A stretch of 64,000 nt of DNA, taken from the NCBI RefSeq assembly GCF_002161215.1, contig NZ_NFMB01000009.1, positions 124,001 to 188,000 of the forward strand. Reading direction: 5' to 3'. This document shows positions 34,627 through 44,205 of this stretch, piece after piece. The position numbers and the translations under genes are program-made. This DNA comes from Flavonifractor sp. An10 (GTDB lineage Bacteria > Bacillota > Clostridia > Oscillospirales > Oscillospiraceae). The first letter of the stretch is position 1; every line of letters starts with the position of its first letter. The notes beneath the pieces were generated by a model. It ran no database searches. It had not been told where the DNA came from and saw only the letters and a list, made by a program, of their open reading frames with translations.

Positions 34627-34869
34627 CCCTATTTTTCGGGATTAAATTCTTTCTAATCTGAAACTTAACAATTTGTTCACAAAATACCGGAGCAAGTCTG
34701 TTAAAATAATAACAGACTTACTGAGGAAGGCGACCTTGGCCCAGGAAAGGACCAGAGGCCGCCTTTTTTTGAGGGGGGTGTGGGATATGGATGCGATACA
34801 GGCAGAAGAAGGATACAGGCAAGGAACGGGGCGGCTGAACAGCGCCTAAATGAAAAGAGAGGTGAATCC
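34627..34869 (+). promoter_or_regulatory. Long leader before the DUF1538 gene with inverted repeat and terminator-like hairpin
   Basis: 243-bp, noticeably AT-rich at first. A perfect inverted repeat AAGTCTGTTA-AAATAA-TAACAGACTT lies at 34694-34719. Then an imperfect hairpin (34727-34763, AAGGCG ... CGCCTT) is followed by TTTTTTT, a terminator or attenuator. About 100 more bases follow before the ATG. No clear pair of sigma-A hexamers with correct spacing was found. Confidence 0.5.
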
Positions 34870-36396
34870 ATGCGGAAAAAACTCAAGGAAAAGATTTCGG
34901 AATCCCTGACCTCGGTGCTCCCGGTCACGGTGATTGTGCTGATTCTCAGCTTTACATTGACCCCCATGCCCAACGGGACGATGCTCCTGTTTCTGCTGGG
35001 GGCGGCCATGCTGATTCTGGGCATGGGCTTTTTCTCCCTGGGAGCGGACATGGCCATGGTGCCCATCGGCGAGCAGATGGGCCGCAGGCTGGGCCCGGGC
35101 AGCAGGCTGCCCATGGTCATTGTTGTGTGCTTCCTCATCGGCGTGTTCGTCACCATCGCCGAGCCGGATCTCACCGTGCTGGCCAAGCAGGTGCCCGCCG
35201 TGCCCGATCTGGTCATTATTCTCACCGTGGCGGTGGGCGTGGGTGTGTTCCTGGTGGCCTCCATGCTGCGCACCCGGTTCAACATCCCCCTGGCGCCCAC
35301 CCTGCTGGTGCTCTATATCGGGGTGTTTCTCCTGTCCATCTTTGTGCCCAACGAGTTCCTGGCGGTGGCCTTTGACTCCGGCGGCGTGACCACCGGCCCC
35401 ATTACGGTGCCCTTCATCATGGCGCTGGGCACCGGCATCGCCAGCATCCAGGGCAGGGAGGAGGACAACTTCGGCATGGTGGCCATGTGCAGCGTGGGCC
35501 CCATCCTGGCGGTCATGGTGCTGGGCATCTGCTTCCAGTCCACGGACGTGGCCTACACCCCCTTCCACATCCCCACCGTCCTGGACTCCCAGGACGCGGG
35601 GCGGGAGTTCCTCAACGGCCTGCCCGCCTATATGGAGGAGGTGGCCCTGGGCCTGCTGCCCATTGTGGTGTTCTTCGCCCTGTTCCAGATGATCTCCATC
35701 CGCCTGAAAAAGCGGGCGGTGATCAAGATCATCGTGGGCATGGTCTATACCTACATCGGCCTGGTGCTGTTCCTCACCGGCGTCAACGTGGGCTTCATGC
35801 CCGCGGGCTATTTCCTGGGCGGTGCCCTGGGGTCGCTGCCTGTGTACTGGCTCCTGGTGCCCATCGGCATGGTGGTGGGCTACTTCATCGTGGCGGCGGA
35901 GCCGGCGGTTCACGTGCTCAACAAGCAGGTGGAGGAGGTCACCAGCGGCGCCATCCCCCAGAAGGCCATCGGCCTGGCCCTGTCCATCGGCGTGTCGGTC
36001 TCCATCGGCCTGGCCATGCTGCGGGTGTGCCTGGGCATCCCCATCTACTTCCTGCTGGTGCCGGGCTATGCCATCGCCCTGATCCTCATGTTTTTTGTCC
36101 CCAAGATCTTCACCGGCATCGCCTTTGACTCCGGCGGCGTGGCGTCCGGCCCCATGACGGCCACCTTCCTGCTGCCCCTGACCATGGGCGCCTGCGAGGC
36201 CCTGGGACGGGACGTGCTGACCGATGCCTTCGGCGTGGTGTCCATGGTGGCCATGACGCCGCTGATCACCATCCAGCTGCTGGGCCTGTTCTACCAGTGG
36301 AAGGTGCGCCGCACCCAGGAGGTCACCCCGGCCGAGGAGCGGGAGATCCAGCTGGTGGACGGCATCATCGACTATGACGAGGAGGTGGAGGCATGA
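34870..36396 (+). CDS. DUF1538 membrane protein
   Basis: 508 residues, polytopic. Two related halves: TVIVLILSFTLTPMPNGTMLLFLLGAAMLILGMGFF begins the first, and TYIGLVLFLTGVNVGFMPAGYFLG the second. Both halves end with a signature FDSGGVTTGPITVPFIMALG / FDSGGVASGPMTATFLLPLT. This duplication is typical of DUF1538 proteins, which look like transporters but whose substrate is unknown. ATG at 34870 with GAGAGGTG upstream. The stop overlaps the start of a P-II-like protein gene, suggesting that this protein is gated by it, as AmtB is by GlnK. Confidence 0.88.
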   Translation: MRKKLKEKISESLTSVLPVTVIVLILSFTLTPMPNGTMLLFLLGAAMLILGMGFFSLGADMAMVPIGEQMGRRLGPGSRLPMVIVVCFLIGVFVTIAEPDLTVLAKQVPAVPDLVIILTVAVGVGVFLVASMLRTRFNIPLAPTLLVLYIGVFLLSIFVPNEFLAVAFDSGGVTTGPITVPFIMALGTGIASIQGREEDNFGMVAMCSVGPILAVMVLGICFQSTDVAYTPFHIPTVLDSQDAGREFLNGLPAYMEEVALGLLPIVVFFALFQMISIRLKKRAVIKIIVGMVYTYIGLVLFLTGVNVGFMPAGYFLGGALGSLPVYWLLVPIGMVVGYFIVAAEPAVHVLNKQVEEVTSGAIPQKAIGLALSIGVSVSIGLAMLRVCLGIPIYFLLVPGYAIALILMFFVPKIFTGIAFDSGGVASGPMTATFLLPLTMGACEALGRDVLTDAFGVVSMVAMTPLITIQLLGLFYQWKVRRTQEVTPAEEREIQLVDGIIDYDEEVEA

Positions 36397-37115
36397 CAGA
36401 TGGAAACAGGCTGCCCCGGCTCAAGCTGATGGTCACCATCATCGACCGGGACAAGGGCGCCCTGGCGGTGAGTCTGTTCCGCGCCCACCATCTGCACTTC
36501 GACTATCTCTGCATGGGGCTGGGCACAGCCAGCTCCCGGATTCTGGACTATTTCGGACTGTCCGAGACGGAGAAGGACGTGGTGTTCACCCTGGTGCCGG
36601 AGCCCTGCGTGGGGAAGATCCTCCGCCTGACGGCGGAAAAATTCCAGATCCACCGGCCCGGGCAGGGGATCCTGTTCACGGTGCCCCTGTCGGCGGTGAG
36701 CGCCCAGGTGCCCCAGGTGCTGTGCAAAAAAGAATATCTGGCCGAAGACGGCGCGGAGGAGGCGGAGAACATGGAGCATACCAAGCAGTACACCCTGGTT
36801 CTGGCGGTGGTCAACCACGGCAGCGTGGACGCCGTCATGGACGCGGCCCGGAGCGAGGGAGCCCGGGGCGGCACCGTTCTCTACGCCCGCCGTGTGGGCA
36901 TGGAGGACATGGAGAACGTGCTGGGCTTTACCTTCCAGCCGGAGAAGGAGGTGGTGGCCATCCTGGCGCCCAAGACGCAGAAAAAGGCGCTGATGGAGGC
37001 CATCAACCGCTCCGCGGGCCTGACCACCGAGGCCAGGGGCATCCTCTTTGCCCTCCCCGTGGACGATCTCATCGGGCTCCAGCCCCCCATTGACAACGGG
37101 GCGGGACAGGAGTAG
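36393..37115 (+). CDS. Tandem P-II-like signalling protein
   Basis: 240 residues with two P-II-like (ferredoxin-fold) units: residues about 8-115 (LKLMVTIIDRDKGALAVSLFRAHHLHFDYLCMG) and about 130-235 (YTLVLAVVNHGSVDAVMDAARSEGARGGTVLYARR). The text GARGGTVLYARR matches the T-loop start of P-II proteins. The start ATG overlaps the DUF1538 stop in ATGA, so expression is coupled. Inferred role: regulator of the neighbouring membrane protein. Classical uridylylation Tyr in the T-loop is not evident. Confidence 0.85.
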   Translation: MTDGNRLPRLKLMVTIIDRDKGALAVSLFRAHHLHFDYLCMGLGTASSRILDYFGLSETEKDVVFTLVPEPCVGKILRLTAEKFQIHRPGQGILFTVPLSAVSAQVPQVLCKKEYLAEDGAEEAENMEHTKQYTLVLAVVNHGSVDAVMDAARSEGARGGTVLYARRVGMEDMENVLGFTFQPEKEVVAILAPKTQKKALMEAINRSAGLTTEARGILFALPVDDLIGLQPPIDNGAGQE

Positions 37116-37223
37116 GATGTTGTCAGAGGGGCGGGCCCCGTACAGGCGGCCCGCCCGCAGAAGAGAAGCAGGGCCCCCGGCTGCGGCTGGGGAGGCCCTG
37201 CCGGGAGAGGGGGAGGGCCCGTC

Positions 37224-37769
37224 ATGACAAAGATCATTGAACTGAAGGAGCGGCGGCAGTTCCGCATTCTGCTCAACCCGGTGCGGCAGGATATTCTCCA
37301 TCTGCTCCGACGGGCGGCACGGCCCATGACGGCCAGCGCCGTGGCGGAGCGGATGCTCCTCTCACCCAGCGCGGCCCAGGCCCATCTGCAGCGGCTGGTG
37401 GAGCTGGGCGCGGTGGAGCAGGTGGCGGTCAGCGGCCGCCCCGCGGCCCTCTACCGGATTGCCGACGCGGAGATCTGCCTGGATCTGGGCCGCAAAGACG
37501 GCTTCCAGGGCGAGCGGGAGGCTCTGGCCGCCCAGATGATGGACGGCACCTTCCGGGGCATCCTCCACGCGGCCTACAGCCACGGGGAGAAGGAGCTGGA
37601 GGACTGCCGCCAGTTCCAGTTCGGCGCCCTCCACCTGAAGCCGGAGGAGCGGGCTGAGCTTCAGAAGATTGTAGAGGACTATCTCCGGGCCCACGGAGCC
37701 CCCCAGGCGGAGGCGGAGCACTGGGAGTATGTCCTGATGGCCTACCGGGCCGATGACGTGAAGCCCTGA
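37224..37769 (+). CDS. Winged-helix (ArsR-like) transcriptional regulator
   Basis: 181 residues. N-terminal HTH of ArsR type: FRILLNPVRQDILHLLRRAARPMTASAVAERMLLSPSAAQAHLQRLVELGAVEQV, followed by a wing RPAALYRIADAE and an all-alpha C-terminal half with no metal-binding cysteines. ATG at 37224 with GGGAGGG upstream. It lies 108 bases after the P-II-like gene, same strand, and could regulate that pair; no operator is recognisable. Strong terminator follows. Confidence 0.8.
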   Translation: MTKIIELKERRQFRILLNPVRQDILHLLRRAARPMTASAVAERMLLSPSAAQAHLQRLVELGAVEQVAVSGRPAALYRIADAEICLDLGRKDGFQGEREALAAQMMDGTFRGILHAAYSHGEKELEDCRQFQFGALHLKPEERAELQKIVEDYLRAHGAPQAEAEHWEYVLMAYRADDVKP

Positions 37770-37803
37770 GCACCCTGCCGGCCGCCCTCTATACAGTATG
37801 AAA

Positions 37804-37847
37804 ATTCCCCCGCCGGGGCCCGCGCAACGCGGCCCCGGCGGGGGAAT
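37804..37847. terminator. Bidirectional terminator
   Basis: Perfect 17-bp stem ATTCCCCCGCCGGGGCC / GGCCCCGGCGGGGGAAT with a 10-base loop, followed by CTGTTTT (plus) and TTTTCATAC (minus). It serves both convergent genes. Confidence 0.9.
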
Positions 37848-37875
37848 CTGTTTTCAGGCGGGCATGGGAACCGGC

Positions 37876-39171
37876 TCAGCCCTCGTCCTTCTCCATCATG
37901 ATGTCCAGGATGGTGCGGTCGGTGGCCACCATGCCGGGGTTGCTCACCCGGCCCATGTTGCGGATGGCCTGCTCGGGGGTGGAGGCGCAGATGCCGTCGC
38001 TGGCGCTGACCACCACGCCGCCCATGGCCAGGTAGGCGCTCATCACCGCGGCGGAGGAGGCGGTGGCCAGCTTGAGGGCGCAGCCGATCTTGCCGCCGTC
38101 GCAGATCATGCCGGTCAGGTTGCCGCTCATGTTGATGATGGCGGCCCCCATCTGGGCGTCGTCGCCACCCAGCAGCCACACCATGGCGGCGGAGGCGGCG
38201 GCCGCCGCGGACACGCCGCAGCCGCAGGTGGCGCTGAGCTTGCCGGTGAAGATCTTGATGTACACGTTGAGCAGGTGGGAGAAGGCCAGGGCCTTCTCGG
38301 TGGCCTCCTTGCTGGCCCCCACGTGCTTGGCCATCTCCACCACGGGGATGATGGCGGTGATGCCGTGGTTGCCGCTGCCGGCGCTGCTCATGACCGCGTA
38401 GGGACAGCCGGACATACGGCCCTCGGCGCTGGAGGCCACCCGAACCATGATGTTGCTCATCAGACTGGAGCCCATCACGTCGGTGGTCAGCTGGTTCTTG
38501 AGGGTGTCGGCGATGCCGATGCCCAGGCGGTTCTCCAGGCCGTAGTCGGAGAGGTTCTCGTTCATCTCGGCGCCGTCCATCATGAAGGAGAGCTCCTCCT
38601 CGGTGGCGGAGTCCACCAGCTCCCGGATCTGGGCCACGGTCATGTCCTTGAGCTTCTCGTGGAGGGCGTCCTCGCCGTCCACGGTGTACTCCTTCTCAAA
38701 GAGCACCTGGTTGTTGGCGCTGGTGTAGACGATGTTGGCGTGGGTGTTGCGGATGGTGCTGATGCCGATGCCCCGGGTGGTGATGATCTCGGCGTGGGCG
38801 TAGAGCTGGGTCTCCTCCTCGGCGATGGTGACGCTGACCTGCTTCTCCTCCACCAGGCGGGTGGCCTCCTTGCTGACGATGCTGTTGATCTCCTCCAGCA
38901 GCTGCAGGCCCTTCTCCGGGTTGCCCAGGCAGGCGCCCAGGGCGGCGGCGTACTTCAGGCCCACCCGGTTGAAGCCGGGGATGCCCACGCTCATGCCGTT
39001 CTTATAGATGCCGGGGTTGACCTCCATCTTGATGGACACCACCTGGCCGCCGATGGCGTGGTAGGCGTCGGCGGCGCACAGGGCCACGCACACGGGCTCG
39101 GTGCAGCCCAGGGCGGGGACAACCTCCTGGCGCAGCAGGGTGAGCATTTCTTCCTTGGTCAGTTGCTTCAT
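37876..39171 (-). CDS. CyuA-type L-cysteine desulfidase / UPF0597 family protein
   Basis: 431 residues. Family of [4Fe-4S] beta-eliminating enzymes related to L-serine dehydratase alpha chains; members degrade cysteine to pyruvate, sulfide and ammonia. Cluster-type cysteines occur in [12 protein letters not shown] near the N-terminus, [15 protein letters not shown] and [14 protein letters not shown]. The GSGNHGITA motif is conserved. ATG at 39171 with AAAGGAG upstream. It is driven by a near-consensus sigma-54 promoter 60 bases upstream, opposite to the activator gene. Together with the PatB lyase and symporter beyond the activator, this points to cysteine/thiol use. Confidence 0.85.
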
Positions 39172-39231
39172 TGCGATTCTCTCCTTTTCAGTCGCCCCGG
39201 CCGGGCGGCTTTGTTTTCTGCATTGACAGAT

Positions 39232-39249
39232 ATGCAACCGGCGTGCCAA
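39232..39249 (-). promoter_or_regulatory. Sigma-54 (-24/-12) promoter of the CyuA-type gene
   Basis: Minus strand TTGGCACGCCGGTTGCAT, matching the RpoN consensus TGGCACG-N4-TTGCW at every defined position. The 12-base GG-to-GC spacing is correct. The predicted start near 39222 leaves a 50-base leader. Confidence 0.85.
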
Positions 39250-39302
39250 CTCATTGCGGCGGGAAAAAGAGGGGAAAAACGGGGAAAATCGGCCCCTGGG
39301 AC

Positions 39303-39331
39303 TTGACAAAGGGGCGGGCAGCGGCCAAAAT
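39303..39331 (+). promoter_or_regulatory. Sigma-A promoter of the sigma-54 activator gene
   Basis: TTGACA, 17 bases, CAAAAT. The -10 is weak. The activator-binding repeat array begins directly after it, over the expected transcription start, allowing self-repression. Confidence 0.5.
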
Positions 39332-39336
39332 AGGTG

Positions 39337-39370
39337 TTAAATCGGTTAAACTGGTCAAAGAAATTGGCCA
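39337..39370 (+). promoter_or_regulatory. Array 1 of 9-bp repeats, probable upstream activating sequence
   Basis: TTAAATCGG, TTAAACTGG, TCAAAGAAA then TTGGCC: 9-bp repeats of the type GGTTAAATY ending with a GGTCAAA unit. It lies about 88 bp upstream of the leftward sigma-54 promoter. Array 2 at 41464-41505 repeats the pattern in inverted orientation. Confidence 0.75.
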
Positions 39371-39388
39371 GATAAGGAGGGCCTTCCC

Positions 39389-41464
39389 TTGAAAAAGAAT
39401 GTGGCGGTCATCTCCCTGGACGCCTATGCCGGGCAGTTCTATGCCCAGCAGGTGCAGGAGCTCTTCGGCGACCGGATTGCCGTGTGCTCCTACAGTGTGC
39501 GGGACGGCTCGGTGGAGCACATGCCCCGCAAGTACGATCTCTATATGGTCACCACCGACGCCTTCGACTCCCTGGGAGACATGCACCGCTATGTGCCCAT
39601 CGACGGGGAGATGATGGAGATTCACGTCACCCTTCGCTGGGACGTGGTGCACAGGCTCCAGGCCCTGCCCGCCGGCAAAAAGGTTCTGTTCGTCAACCTG
39701 AGCGATAAGATGTGCCGGGAGGCGGTGACCCGCCTCAACCAGCTGGGGGTGAACCAGCTGGACTTCGATCTCTACCATCCCGGCGCGCCGGAGCCGGATA
39801 TGAGCCAGTATGACTTTGTGATCACCCCCCAGGAGACCCGCTATGTCCCCGCCGGGGCCAGGGAGATCATCGACATCGGCCAGCGGGTGTGCGACAGCTC
39901 CACCATGATCGAGGCGGCCCTCCGCCTGGGCTTCGAGGAGCTGCTGGAGACCCCGGAGTTTGAGCAGTACCAGCGGGATGTGGCCGCCAATACCTACAGC
40001 TTCGACCGGGTGTTTGCCCGGGGCCTGCGGCTGGAGAGCCAGTTTGAGATCCTCATGGAGATCCTGGACGAGGGCATCGTGGGGGTCAACGAGCGGGGAG
40101 AGGTGTTTGCCAGCAACCACAAGCTGGAGGAGATCACCGGCATCCCCGGTGCCCGGGCGCTCCAGCGCCCGGCGGCGGAGGTGTACCCCTTCGTCCCCTT
40201 TGCCAGATGCCTGGCCGAGCGGGCCCCCCAGCCCGCCCAGGTGGTGAGCGCCAACGGCGTCAACATGAACGTGGCGGTGGCGCCGGTGCTCCGGGGGGGC
40301 GCCTGCATCGGTGCCTTCGCCACGGTGCAGCGGTTCAGCGACGCGGAGAACCGGCAGAACGAGCTGCGCAGCCAGCTGCTCCACAAGGGCTACCGGGCCA
40401 AGTACACCTTTGACGACGTGGTGGGCCAGTCACCGGCCATCCGGCGGTGCATCACCATATTAAAGAAGATGTCCCTCACCCAGCTCCCCGTCCTCCTCAT
40501 CGGGGAGACGGGCACCGGCAAGGAGCTCTTTGCCCACGCGGTTCACAACGCCTCTCCCCGGGCAGACGGGCCCTTTGTAGCCATCAACTGCGCCGCCATG
40601 CCGGAAAACCTGCTGGAGAGCGAACTGTTCGGCTACGAGGAGGGAGCCTTCACCGGCGCCCGGAAGGGGGGCAAGCCCGGCCTGTTCGAGTTCGCCCACA
40701 AGGGCACCCTGTTTCTGGACGAGGTGGAGGGCATGAGCACCGCCCTCCAGTGCAAGCTGCTGCGGGTGCTCCAGGAGCGGGAGATCATGCGGGTGGGGGG
40801 CAACCGCATCGTCTCGGTGGACGTGCGCATCGTGGCAGCCACCAACGAAAACCTGGACAAGATGGTGGAGGAGGGCACCTTCCGGCGGGATCTCTACTAC
40901 CGTCTCAACACCCTGCCCGTGCTGATCCCGCCCCTGCGGGAGCGGGAGGGGGATCTGCTGCTGCTCATCGACCACTTCCGAAAGGGCATCGGCGCCTCCT
41001 TCACCCTGTCGCCCGAGCTGGAGCGGCTGCTGCTCACCCACCAGTGGCGGGGGAATATCCGGGAGCTGCGCAACGTGGTGGAGTATTTCAGCTATACCGG
41101 CAGCCCCGTGGTGGGGCCGGAGGAGCTGCCGCCCACCTTTCACTATCTGCCCGCCGGCCTGCCGGAGGCCGGCGGGGCCGGGGCGCAGCCCCCGCGGCTG
41201 GCGGACTGCCCCCAGGAGGACGAGCGGTTTGTGCTCTCCCGGCTCTACCAGGCCGACCGGGAGGGGCGCAGCCTGGGCCGGGACGCCATCCTGGCCGATG
41301 CCAAGGCGGCGGGGCTGCCCTGCTCCCAGCAGGAGGTGCGGCGCATCCTCTCCGCCCTGGATCAGGCGGGCCTGGCCCGGGTGAGCCGGGGGAGAGGGGG
41401 CACACGGCTCACCCCAGCCGGCCGGGCCCTGTGCCGCCGGCTGGAAACGGAGGAGAAGCTCTGA
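39389..41464 (+). CDS. Sigma-54-dependent transcriptional activator with C-terminal winged helix
   Basis: 691 residues. An N-terminal sensory region (1-200) starts KKNVAVISLDAYAGQFYAQQ and resembles a PrpR-N-like or receiver-like alpha/beta domain. A PAS domain follows (about 210-315; ILDEGIVGVNERGEVFASN), then an AAA+ domain: Walker A GETGTGKE near residue 371, GAFTGA near 419 for sigma-54 contact, Walker B GTLFLDEVE near 440. Instead of a Fis-type HTH, the C-terminus (about 610-691) looks like a winged helix (VRRILSALDQAGLARVSRGRGGTRLT). TTG start at 39389 with AAGGAGGG upstream. It is flanked by two copies of its probable binding array. Confidence 0.92.
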   Translation: MKKNVAVISLDAYAGQFYAQQVQELFGDRIAVCSYSVRDGSVEHMPRKYDLYMVTTDAFDSLGDMHRYVPIDGEMMEIHVTLRWDVVHRLQALPAGKKVLFVNLSDKMCREAVTRLNQLGVNQLDFDLYHPGAPEPDMSQYDFVITPQETRYVPAGAREIIDIGQRVCDSSTMIEAALRLGFEELLETPEFEQYQRDVAANTYSFDRVFARGLRLESQFEILMEILDEGIVGVNERGEVFASNHKLEEITGIPGARALQRPAAEVYPFVPFARCLAERAPQPAQVVSANGVNMNVAVAPVLRGGACIGAFATVQRFSDAENRQNELRSQLLHKGYRAKYTFDDVVGQSPAIRRCITILKKMSLTQLPVLLIGETGTGKELFAHAVHNASPRADGPFVAINCAAMPENLLESELFGYEEGAFTGARKGGKPGLFEFAHKGTLFLDEVEGMSTALQCKLLRVLQEREIMRVGGNRIVSVDVRIVAATNENLDKMVEEGTFRRDLYYRLNTLPVLIPPLREREGDLLLLIDHFRKGIGASFTLSPELERLLLTHQWRGNIRELRNVVEYFSYTGSPVVGPEELPPTFHYLPAGLPEAGGAGAQPPRLADCPQEDERFVLSRLYQADREGRSLGRDAILADAKAAGLPCSQQEVRRILSALDQAGLARVSRGRGGTRLTPAGRALCRRLETEEKL

Positions 41465-41505
41465 ATTGGTTTGACCAATTTAACCTTTTTAACCGATTTA
41501 ACCTG
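41464..41505 (-). promoter_or_regulatory. Array 2 of 9-bp repeats, probable upstream activating sequence
   Basis: On the minus strand: AGGTTAAAT, CGGTTAAAA, AGGTTAAAT, TGGTCAAAC, CAATT. Same motif order as array 1 with one extra 9-bp unit. It lies about 132 bp upstream of the rightward sigma-54 promoter, directly after the activator stop codon. Confidence 0.75.
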
Positions 41506-41526
41506 TTTCCCCGGCTTGCGTCAGGG

Positions 41527-41566
41527 GCGCCGCCGGACACTGGTAAGAGTGTCCGGCGGCGCTTTT
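41527..41566 (+). terminator. Terminator of the activator gene
   Basis: 15-bp perfect stem GCGCCGCCGGACACT / AGTGTCCGGCGGCGC, loop GGTAAG, followed by TTTTATC. It lies between array 2 and the patB promoter. Confidence 0.88.
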
Positions 41567-41636
41567 ATCTGTTTTATACAAAGGCAGAGAATAGAAATTG
41601 TATAAATCGGATAATGTTGCGGAAGCTGGCATAGTT

Positions 41637-41652
41637 CGGCACGCCGTTTGCT
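41637..41652 (+). promoter_or_regulatory. Sigma-54 (-24/-12) promoter of the PatB-symporter operon
   Basis: CGGCACGCCGTTTGCT against TGGCACG-N4-TTGCW: one mismatch, correct 12-base GG-to-GC spacing. Predicted start near 41663, 59 bases before the ATG. Confidence 0.8.
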
Positions 41653-41721
41653 CAAAACAGGGGCAAGCGTACAGCCTGAAATAAAAACCCAATCCAGAGA
41701 AGGAAAGGCAGGTAAGCAGCG

Positions 41722-42891
41722 ATGAAGTATGATTTTGATGTGGTGGTTGACCGCAGCAAAAACTGCGCGGCCAAGTACGATGAGCGGAAGAAGAAATTCG
41801 GCACCGATGACGTCATCCCCCTGTGGATCGCCGACATGGACTTCAAGACCGCCCAGCCCATCATTGACGCCCTGGGCAAGCGGGCCCAGGAGGGCATCTG
41901 GGGCTACACCAGCCGCCCGGACTCCTATTTTGAGGCCATCCGGGGCTGGCAGAAGCGCCGCAACGGCTGGGACATCGACCAGAGCCTGATGAGCTTCAGC
42001 CTGGGCGTGGTGCAGACCATCAGCGCCATGGTGAAGCTGTTCACCCCCGAGGGGGGCAGCGTGCTCATCCAGACCCCGGTGTACTCCGAGTTCTACGACA
42101 TGACCGAGGCGTGGAACCGCAGGGTGCTGGAGAACCAGTTTATTGAGAAGGACGGCAAGTGGGAGATGGACTGGGCCGACTTTGAGGCCAAGCTGGAGGA
42201 GGCCGACCTGTTCCTGCTGTGCAACCCCCACAACCCCCTGGGCATCGTCTGGACGCCCGAGGAGCTGCGCCGCATGGTGGAGCTGTGCATGAAGCACCAT
42301 GTGGTTCTGTTCTCCGACGAGATCCACTCCGACCTGATCTTCCACGGCAAGAAGCATACCCCCACCGCCACCGTGTCTCCCGAGGCCGCCCAGTACGTGG
42401 TCACCGGCATCTCCGGCACCAAGACCTTCAACCTGGCGGGCCTGCAGGCCTCCACCGCGGTGTTCCCCAATGCCCATATGAAGCAGGTCTTTGACCACTA
42501 CTGGCAGTGCATGGACATCCACCGCAACAACGCCTTCTCCCTCACCGCCATGCAGGCCGCCTTCAACGAGGGCGAGGAGTGGCTGGAGCAGCTGCTGGCC
42601 TATCTGTCCGACAACTTCGACTTCGTGGTCAACTACTGCAGGGAGCACATCCCCCAGATCAAGACCTACGCCCCCGACGCCACCTACCTGATGTGGCTGG
42701 ACTGCCGGGAGCTGGGCCTGGACAACGAGGCGCTGCGCCGCTTCATGATCGAGAAGGCCAAGCTGGGCCTCAACGAGGGCTATACCTTCGGCCGCAGCCT
42801 GAGCGGCTACATGCGGCTCAACGCTGCCTGCCCCCGCAGCGTGCTGGAGCAGGCCATGAAGCAGCTGGAGGCGGCGGTCAAGTCCCTGTAA
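41722..42891 (+). CDS. PatB/MalY-family C-S lyase (aminotransferase fold)
   Basis: 389 residues. PLP enzyme; family members cleave cystathionine or S-substituted cysteines to pyruvate, ammonia and a thiol. Typical text: DVIPLWIADMDFKTAQPIIDAL at the N-terminus, LLCNPHNPLGIVWT, the PLP-binding SDEIHSDLIF, and the Schiff-base lysine in SGTKTFNLAG (about residue 234). It ends with RMNAACPRSVLEQ-like text (MRLNAACPRSVLEQ). ATG at 41722. First gene of a sigma-54-driven operon with a symporter and a glutaredoxin-like protein. Confidence 0.93.
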   Translation: MKYDFDVVVDRSKNCAAKYDERKKKFGTDDVIPLWIADMDFKTAQPIIDALGKRAQEGIWGYTSRPDSYFEAIRGWQKRRNGWDIDQSLMSFSLGVVQTISAMVKLFTPEGGSVLIQTPVYSEFYDMTEAWNRRVLENQFIEKDGKWEMDWADFEAKLEEADLFLLCNPHNPLGIVWTPEELRRMVELCMKHHVVLFSDEIHSDLIFHGKKHTPTATVSPEAAQYVVTGISGTKTFNLAGLQASTAVFPNAHMKQVFDHYWQCMDIHRNNAFSLTAMQAAFNEGEEWLEQLLAYLSDNFDFVVNYCREHIPQIKTYAPDATYLMWLDCRELGLDNEALRRFMIEKAKLGLNEGYTFGRSLSGYMRLNAACPRSVLEQAMKQLEAAVKSL

Positions 42892-42939
42892 GGGGCCGCC
42901 TCGGCACAAGGAATCTTGGAAAAGAGAGGAGCATCTCCT

Positions 42940-44205
42940 GTGGCAACCATTCAAAAGAAGAGCTTCTGGCAGCAGTACGGAAGCCTGATCCTGATCCTGG
43001 GCGGCATCATCATCGGCGCCCTCATCGGGGCCTTTGCCCCCGCCGTGGGCACCACCATCAAGCCCATCGGCGACATCTTCCTGAACCTGCTGTTCACCAT
43101 CGTGGTTCCCCTGGTGTTTGTGTCCATCGCCTCCGCCGTTGGCAGCATGGCAAACATGAAGCGCCTGGGCAAGATCCTGGGCTCCACCATCGGCACCTTC
43201 ATCTTCACCGGCCTGATCGCCGCGGCCTGTGTGCTCGTCTGGGTGAACCTGTTCAGCCCCTCCGCCGGCACCTCCATCCAGCTGACGGCCGGTGAGGCCG
43301 GCGAGGCCCAGAGCGCCGGCGAGCTGCTGGTCAGCACCCTGACCGTGTCCGATTTCTCCGATCTGTGGGATAAGTCCAACATGCTGCCCCTGATCATCTT
43401 TGCCATCATCTTCGGCTTCTGCGTGTCCGCCTGCGGCGGCGACGAGAGCCCCATGGGCAAGCTGCTCATGAACCTGAACGACATCATCATGAAGTTCGTG
43501 GGCGTCATCATGTTCATCGCCCCCATCGGCCTGGGCGCCTACTTCGCCAACCTGGTGGCTACCTACGGCCCGGAGATCGTGGGCGACTACGGCCGCTCCA
43601 TGCTGGTCTACTACCCCCTGTGCCTGCTTTACGGCGTTATTTTCTTCCCCCTGTACGCCTTCCTGGCCGGCGGCAAGCTGGGCGTGAAGAGAATGATCAA
43701 GAACATCTTCCCGCCTGCCATCACCGCCTTCGCCACCCAGTCCTCCGCCGCCACCATCCCCGTGAACAAGGAGGCCTGTGACAACATCGGCGTGCCCAAG
43801 GACGTCAGCGATCTGGTGCTGCCCATGGGCTGCACCATGCACATGGACGGCTCCGTCCTCAGCTCCATCGTGAAGATCGCCTTCCTCTACGGCATCTTCG
43901 GCATGGACTTCACCGGCGCGGGCACCTACGCCATGGCCATCGTGGTGGCCATCCTGTCCGCCTTCGTGCTCTCCGGCGCCCCCGGCGGCGGCCTGGTGGG
44001 CGAGATGCTCATCGTCAGCATGTTCAACTTCCCCGCCGAGGCTTTCCCCATCATTGCCACCCTGGGCTTCATCTTTGACCCCGCCGCCACCTGCCTGAAC
44101 TCCTCCGGCGACACCATTGCCTCCATGATGGTCACCCGCCTGGTGGAGGGCAAGGACTGGCTGGTCAAGGCTGTGGCCGCCAAAAAGGGGCAGAGCCAGG
44201 AGTAA
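42940..44205 (+). CDS. Dicarboxylate/amino acid:cation symporter (DAACS family)
   Basis: 421 residues, GltPh-like fold with eight helices and two re-entrant hairpins. Family motifs: FLNLLFTIVVPLVFVSIASAVGSM, hairpin 1 serine-rich TAFATQSSAATIPV, helix 7 PMGCTMHMDGSVL (a variant of NMDGT) and hairpin 2 APGGGLVGEM. GTG start at 42940 with AGAGAGGAG upstream; an earlier in-frame start would overlap that site. Context suggests cystine, cysteine or a related amino acid as substrate, by inference from its operon partners. The helix 7 text differs from aspartate/glutamate carriers. Confidence 0.92.
   Translation: MATIQKKSFWQQYGSLILILGGIIIGALIGAFAPAVGTTIKPIGDIFLNLLFTIVVPLVFVSIASAVGSMANMKRLGKILGSTIGTFIFTGLIAAACVLVWVNLFSPSAGTSIQLTAGEAGEAQSAGELLVSTLTVSDFSDLWDKSNMLPLIIFAIIFGFCVSACGGDESPMGKLLMNLNDIIMKFVGVIMFIAPIGLGAYFANLVATYGPEIVGDYGRSMLVYYPLCLLYGVIFFPLYAFLAGGKLGVKRMIKNIFPPAITAFATQSSAATIPVNKEACDNIGVPKDVSDLVLPMGCTMHMDGSVLSSIVKIAFLYGIFGMDFTGAGTYAMAIVVAILSAFVLSGAPGGGLVGEMLIVSMFNFPAEAFPIIATLGFIFDPAATCLNSSGDTIASMMVTRLVEGKDWLVKAVAAKKGQSQE

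Follow-up and report, generated by a model that had tools for sequence, protein, structure and literature searches.

The locus studied here lies in a stretch of 64,000 nucleotides from Flavonifractor sp. An10 (contig NZ_NFMB01000009.1, positions 124,001 to 188,000; hereafter the window), in which the gene of a sigma-54 activator is flanked by two arrays of short, oriented repeats, each upstream of a -24/-12 promoter. It raises the question which protein reads these arrays, and how units that largely point in one direction fit a class of regulators whose sites are often inverted repeats (PMC6615313). We propose that the arrays are probably enhancers, or upstream activating sequences (UAS), of the very activator that is encoded between them, and that they control a putative regulon with two arms, cyuA to the left, patB and a symporter gene to the right. 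The elements concerned are the following.

37876-39171, minus strand: L-cysteine desulfidase-like gene, CyuA/CdsB type (PF03313, SDH_alpha, 5.9e-53)
39233-39248, minus strand: sigma-54 -24/-12 promoter 1, desulfidase gene, TGGCACGCCGGTTGCA
39335-39370, plus strand: array 1, with a degenerate unit at 39335 and GG at 39344, 39353 and 39366 (steps 9 and 13)
39389-41464, plus strand: gene of the sigma-54 activator, 691 aa
41464-41505, minus strand: array 2, with four GGTYAAA units at 9-bp steps (GG at 41503, 41494, 41485 and 41476) and an inverted AATTGG half-site at 41464-41470
41637-41652, plus strand: sigma-54 -24/-12 promoter 2, patB operon, CGGCACGCCGTTTGCT
41722-42891, plus strand: PatB/MalY family C-S lyase (TIGR04350, 467.7 bits, cut-off 340)
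42916-44205, plus strand: SDF-family (sodium:dicarboxylate) symporter (PF00375, 2.8e-100)

The protein encoded between the arrays is a bacterial enhancer-binding protein (EBP): its AAA+ domain (PF00158, 2.1e-70, residues 345-585) carries GAFTGA at residue 419, -24/-12 promoters are near and the genome holds rpoN, a single sigma-54 gene being found. The initial annotation had reported this motif, both arrays and both promoters, with the arrays oriented alike towards their respective promoters, and we recovered all of these, both promoters as perfect consensus matches. Counted from the site coordinates, the arrays lie 97-162 bp from the -24 GG. The common order of units that had been described for the two arrays stands in part. 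Both arrays are real, but array 1 holds only two perfect GGTYAAA units (39344, 39353), and its supposed first unit at 39335 (TGTTAAA) is degenerate and differs between loci. An extra unit, AAATTGGCC, follows 13 bp past the second perfect one (GG at 39366), and the '(C)AATT' element, which is part of this direct 13-bp unit in array 1, is an inverted half-site in array 2. There, it builds a 17-bp palindrome, AATTGGT-TTG-ACCAATT (41464-41480), which overlaps the final base of the stop codon of the activator gene. Array 2 is thus not purely direct.

The exact pair GGTYAAA-N2-GGTYAAA occurs four times in the window, versus none in each of 200 dinucleotide shuffles, and four times in the 3.88 Mb genome, every time inside the arrays; in this exact form, the notion of a 'complete regulon' holds up genome-wide. 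Among 60 genomes, four, the own one included, encode an activator orthologue that is 83% identical or more; in all four, exact pairs flank it left and right, and these account for 11 of the 11 exact-pair matches in those four genomes. The other 56 genomes yield seven single exact-pair matches, versus six for a reversed-pattern control in the same 56 (seven over all 60). From this co-occurrence with close orthologues we infer that the activator binds the arrays. Alternatively, these could belong to another DNA-binding protein, such as a global sulfur or nitrogen regulator or the ArsR-like protein at 37224-37769, and merely adjoin the activator gene. Array 1 indeed follows directly on the sigma-A promoter of the activator gene (described below), which is a usual place of a repressor operator. 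Yet exact pairs are confined to the arrays in this genome and, across the 60 genomes, track close activator orthologues, and next to distant activator homologues a similar half-site accompanies different target genes. We consider this explanation unlikely.

To follow the arrays across relatives, the flanks of 43 of the 79 homologous loci returned were examined, plus the window. The near set comprises 24 loci, namely the window and the 23 nearest (L031-L053), L031 being the closest with an activator of 99% identity. PatB lies downstream of the activator in 24/24 loci, window included, and a sigma-54 site faces it in 22 of them (none by the pattern used in L035 and L042). A sigma-54 site likewise faces the desulfidase gene in 22/22 loci with divergent CyuA (window, L031-L050, L053), and in neither of the two loci in which CyuA is not divergent (L051, L052). 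One gene flanked by inverted repeats might recall a mobile element that brought the activator gene, the arrays being its inverted terminal repeats or their remnants. We rejected this on synteny, given the constant PatB and the divergent CyuA in 22 of the 24 loci; moreover, the units differ between the arrays and keep their polarity to the promoters, and there is no transposase among the seven neighboring proteins scanned, so that such an origin is highly improbable.

The relaxed unit AWHGGTY, a pattern picked after inspection of the same 24 loci, occurs upstream of the activator gene 48 times in sense and never in antisense orientation. Absence of the arrays from orthologous loci had been named as evidence against the feature; what the flanks display is conservation, within limits. 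A triple of GG units at 9/13 steps lies upstream in 12/24 loci (window, L031-L037, L044, L046, L047, L053), versus 0.05 expected from mononucleotide shuffles, a statistic that ignores the kinship of these related loci, and a 9-bp GGYY pair lies downstream in 12/24. When 14 of the 24 loci, ranging from Flavonifractor-like to Gemmiger, are aligned, the columns of TTGACA and of GGT in two units show no variation and the GG of the third unit hardly any; gaps in L049 and L050 reflect different steps there. The feature is genuine and shared by close relatives, and its conservation weakens with distance from the window's activator. The same association appears from the side of the target gene: in a comparison of the desulfidase family (21 loci examined of 24 fetched; 38 match rows), all seven CyuA-family loci in genomes with an activator orthologue of at least 75% identity have a sigma-54 site and GGTYAAA units.

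Some further features of the near group stand beside these counts. Convergent half-sites 7-8 bp apart occur downstream of the activator (9 pairs in 22 loci), and L053 and L052 show runs of GGTT units in this position at steps of about 10 and 11 bp (partly by eye), so that the array step seems to drift between lineages. L126, from Clostridiales 1_7_47_FAA, is a second activator-PatB pair (56% and 67% identical); the regulon seems to have been duplicated there. In a class-wide search, activator matches at E ≤ 1e-90 were present in 22/196 genomes, some of them over the AAA+ part only.

How the activator could read such arrays is suggested by its C-terminal part. UAS are typically bound by paired DNA-binding (helix-turn-helix) domains (review PMC7175178), and the DNA-binding domain of EBPs is usually Fis-type (PMC4641369; PMC6615313), such a domain being present in 335 of 490 EBPs (PMC6615313); it is usual in EBPs and not an absolute requirement of the class. 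A Fis-type C-terminal domain (PF02954) was rejected for the window's activator, as that part gave no Pfam match to it at E ≤ 1. An AlphaFold2 model built from 33 sequences (mean pLDDT 83, with blocks of 91-95 over residues 31-110 of the piece) has the topology helix-helix-helix-strand-strand-helix, and Foldseek retrieves DtxR (E 9e-4), then IdeR, MntR, CggR and MarR-family chains, which are winged-helix proteins. In the homologue L105, the winged-helix model HTH_12 scores 27.7 bits, over its cut-off of 21.4. The C-terminus (about residues 609-689) is predicted to form a winged helix, and a reading domain of this type may explain the tandem repeats in place of simple mirror-image pairs. The description 'direct repeats instead of a dyad' fits array 1, and only partly array 2 and the distant relatives, in which a dyad is often built with direct pairs as its arms. 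As to the remainder of the protein, the N-terminal part (residues 1-205) is two-lobed and finds weak structural matches, among other folds to PrpR N-terminal domains (2pju, 2q5c); since none is under E 0.001 (best E 2.2e-3), the designation 'PrpR_N-like' is tentative. The region 216-330 matches PAS in homologues; in the window's protein, no PAS match was obtained at E 0.001.

A related half-site, AATNGG, recurs in distant homologues. This set comprises 20 loci, with neighbors listed for 16, and in 12 of these 16 the activator homologue is followed by a PuuD-like gene and a permease (names by reading of the sequences). Downstream of the 20 activator genes, WAWNGG forms direct pairs, 18 at 12 bp (shuffle mean 0.15) and six at 9 bp (0.21), as well as convergent pairs, e.g., at 24, 27 and 36. 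A direct pair is present in 14/20 loci, a convergent partner as well in 13/20, and six lack direct pairs at 9- or 12-bp steps. L075 is typical of the layout: AATAGG -12- AATAGG ... CCTATT -9- CCTATT. Thus, steps of 9 and 12/13 recur across the groups, whereas the orientation differs, often facing in the distant group and one-way in array 1. Nie et al. (2019, PMC6615313) define a GamR group as the regulator of puuDT, and we infer that the distant PuuD-permease homologues correspond to this group. These GamR candidates (full-length homologues of 31-35% identity) share the C-terminal domain of the window's activator and are accompanied by an AATAGG half-site, but their direct pairs are often arranged face to face, e.g., a 12-bp pair followed by an inverted 9-bp pair.

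Among other homologues, the activator preceding the C. difficile malY that is nearest to PatB is 36-39% identical and on a long branch; it is followed by AATAGG-like units at 9-bp steps in both directions (by eye), and the gene after malY resembles an antiporter, not pepT. The C. difficile genome of L059 (G060) holds 16 activator matches, six of which span the N-terminal and AAA+ parts, five of these nearly full-length; the family therefore looks expanded there. The flanks of a same-genome paralogue of the window's activator (L024, 35%) contain no GGTYAAA array. At 1419-1465 of L024, past the stop codon, lies a long perfect palindrome with GGGATAAACGGG; each of its arms has GGG in direct repeat at a 9-bp step, and a site or a terminator is equally conceivable.

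Several observations weigh against the proposal that the arrays are enhancers of the adjoining activator, or narrow it. YGGCACG-N4-TTGCW at up to one mismatch finds two sites in 64 kb, both perfect and facing the desulfidase and patB genes, yet 34 of 100 shuffles also hold at least two sites at this threshold; the count alone is at chance level, and the two sites carry weight because of their position and conservation, not their number. When one mismatch is allowed in the GGTYAAA pair, 10 pairs occur in the genome, five of them outside the arrays, and a reversed-pattern control gives 9. Thus, only the exact pattern discriminates, 'complete regulon' does not extend to one-mismatch sites, and weaker sites elsewhere in the genome are possible. 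The exact pair was not found in the genus relatives G002, G009 and G015, whose orthologues are 75-76% identical. Within the near set, the 9/13 triple is absent from 12/24 loci, three of which have the 9-bp pair alone and nine neither; the downstream 9-bp pair is lacking in the other 12/24, and the relaxed unit downstream is found 20 times in antisense next to 48 times in sense. Scores of a trained matrix hardly exceed those of shuffles upstream in L048, L050, L052 and L053 and downstream in L042, L049, L050 and L053. L041, L042, L048 and L052 have steps of 8, 11 or 12, and since steps of 7, 8, 11, 12, 20-22, 30, 33 and more also exceed shuffles in the near group, again by a comparison that ignores kinship, 9 bp is not the sole step. 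The remaining 14 CyuA-family loci have neither a sigma-54 site nor a 9-bp pair (0/14), but as distant homologues (at most 52% identity) they form a weak control, and eight of these 14 loci, which lack the activator, hold a stray single GGTYAAA. The Fis-type control for half-site pairs is small as well, with no pairs in seven loci and shuffles also near 0. In the distant set, the facing pairs sit just past stop codons, so that some may double as terminator hairpins. Concerning the protein, DtxR is the sole Foldseek match to the C-terminal model below E 0.001, and HTH_12 reaches 14.3 bits in the window's own activator, below the 21.4 cut-off.

The position of the arrays in the activator's own transcription unit adds a second aspect, for which two further elements are needed; the first of them, the sigma-A promoter that leads into array 1, is absent from the initial annotation, as is the non-Fis nature of the C-terminal domain.

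39303-39331, plus strand: sigma-A-type promoter of the activator gene, TTGACA-17-CAAAAT (one in the region, shuffle mean 0.3)
41523-41566, plus strand: intrinsic terminator for the activator transcript, downstream of array 2 and upstream of promoter 2

Array 1 lies between the sigma-A promoter and the activator start codon, its first perfect unit 13 bp past the -10 box in the window. A lenient scan finds TTGAC(A/T/G) with a -10-like hexamer 17-19 bp on before the activator gene in 22/24 loci (absent from L052 and L053). Because array 1 sits just past the -10 element, activator bound there is predicted to block transcription of its own gene. The same positions would also suit arrays that act in RNA, by pairing with each other or by binding a protein: the activator mRNA would carry array 1 in its 5' untranslated region, past the predicted start and ahead of the ribosome site, and array 2, inversely oriented, in its 3' untranslated region, ahead of the terminator. 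The two are complementary over about 15 nt (by eye). An RNA element was rejected, as the region 37800-42000 has no Rfam match up to E 1. Furthermore, conservation falls on the GGs, not on the paired halves of a stem, and distant homologues show a downstream array only (partly by eye), which together make action in RNA very unlikely. Between promoter 1 and array 1, A-tracts recur at 10-bp steps (39264-39292), perhaps forming an intrinsic bend that aids a loop.

Under the enhancer proposal, the switch would operate as follows. With its inducer present (cysteine, cystine or a thioether amino acid being the likeliest candidates), the activator would assemble via its C-terminal winged-helix domains on several half-sites of roughly 9 bp, (A)AANNGGTYAAA, the steps of 9 and 12/13 presumably reflecting the spacing of these domains in the oligomer. 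It would then drive the two sigma-54 promoters, leftward for cyuA and rightward for patB and the symporter gene, while occupation of array 1 would repress the activator gene. The leftward product is desulfidase-like by near-full-length homology to a solved structure, residues 11-429 of 431 aligning to PDB 9fsl, 'L-cysteine desulfidase' (E 2.2e-30), with the corresponding activity predicted. The symporter perhaps takes up cystine or an amino acid. On the far side of the desulfidase gene, 34780-37769 encodes a fused UmpA/UmpB-like (DUF1538) protein, a PII-like protein and the ArsR-like winged-helix regulator.

Parts of this arrangement resemble known systems. Nie et al. (2019, PMC6615313) predicted XcyR as the EBP of malY-pepT-hyp in Clostridioides, Clostridium, Flavonifractor, Geosporobacter and Lachnoclostridium, with a UAS motif termed distinct from the TGT-N10-12-ACA type. 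As in the window family, which adjoins PatB/MalY throughout the near set, XcyR is an EBP tied to malY in a list that names Flavonifractor, and in F. plautii (L037) the activator orthologue directly precedes a close malY (PatB 88% identical). The window-type activator in F. plautii is probably XcyR, and a regulon of the XcyR/malY kind has likely been predicted already by these authors. In the window, the gene that follows malY is that of the SDF symporter. A difference is that the putative regulon of the window includes cyuA, which the XcyR row, in the available portion of the table in PMC6615313, does not list. We do not apply the name XcyR outright because the nearest malY of C. difficile is preceded by a distant, long-branched EBP. 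For the regulation of malY in C. difficile, the available portion of PMC9243749 adds nothing.

Sigma-54 control of a desulfidase gene is also known from CdsR of C. difficile, where control of cysteine desulfidase is cysteine-induced and needs a region 153-223 bp upstream of the start (PMC5767170). CdsR (591 aa) has PAS, AAA and Fis domains (PMC5767170), whereas the window's activator has no Fis match. The putative UAS of CdsR is an inverted repeat, unlike array 1, all direct (48:0 over the 24 loci), and array 2, mixed (48:20); and the available portion of PMC5767170 describes no PatB arm of the kind present in the window. That an EBP may carry a winged helix has a precedent in DVU0151 of Desulfovibrio vulgaris, which lacks a Fis-type domain and some orthologues of which match a winged-helix model (PMC4641369). 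It shares with the window's activator the missing Fis-type domain, the link to a winged helix and a long N-terminal region of unknown kind, but has GAFSEA in place of GAFTGA and targets a transporter operon (PMC4641369).

Our searches of the open-licence literature turned up no account of polar direct-repeat arrays in this clade. What is new here is a probable winged-helix EBP with oriented half-site arrays. Tentatively, and with considerable doubt, one may go further and envisage a clostridial EBP subfamily whose polar arrays of direct half-sites at 9-13 bp steps are read by monomeric winged helices, head-to-tail, matching the rotational symmetry of the AAA+ ring, the array at the same time shutting off the activator gene. 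If true, a winged-helix clade with direct half-site arrays would offer a test case for the need of dyad symmetry, for the seating of the AAA+ ring and for enhancer polarity. For the gut Oscillospiraceae, it would mean that one switch joins two routes of cysteine and C-S breakdown, and hence of H2S formation.

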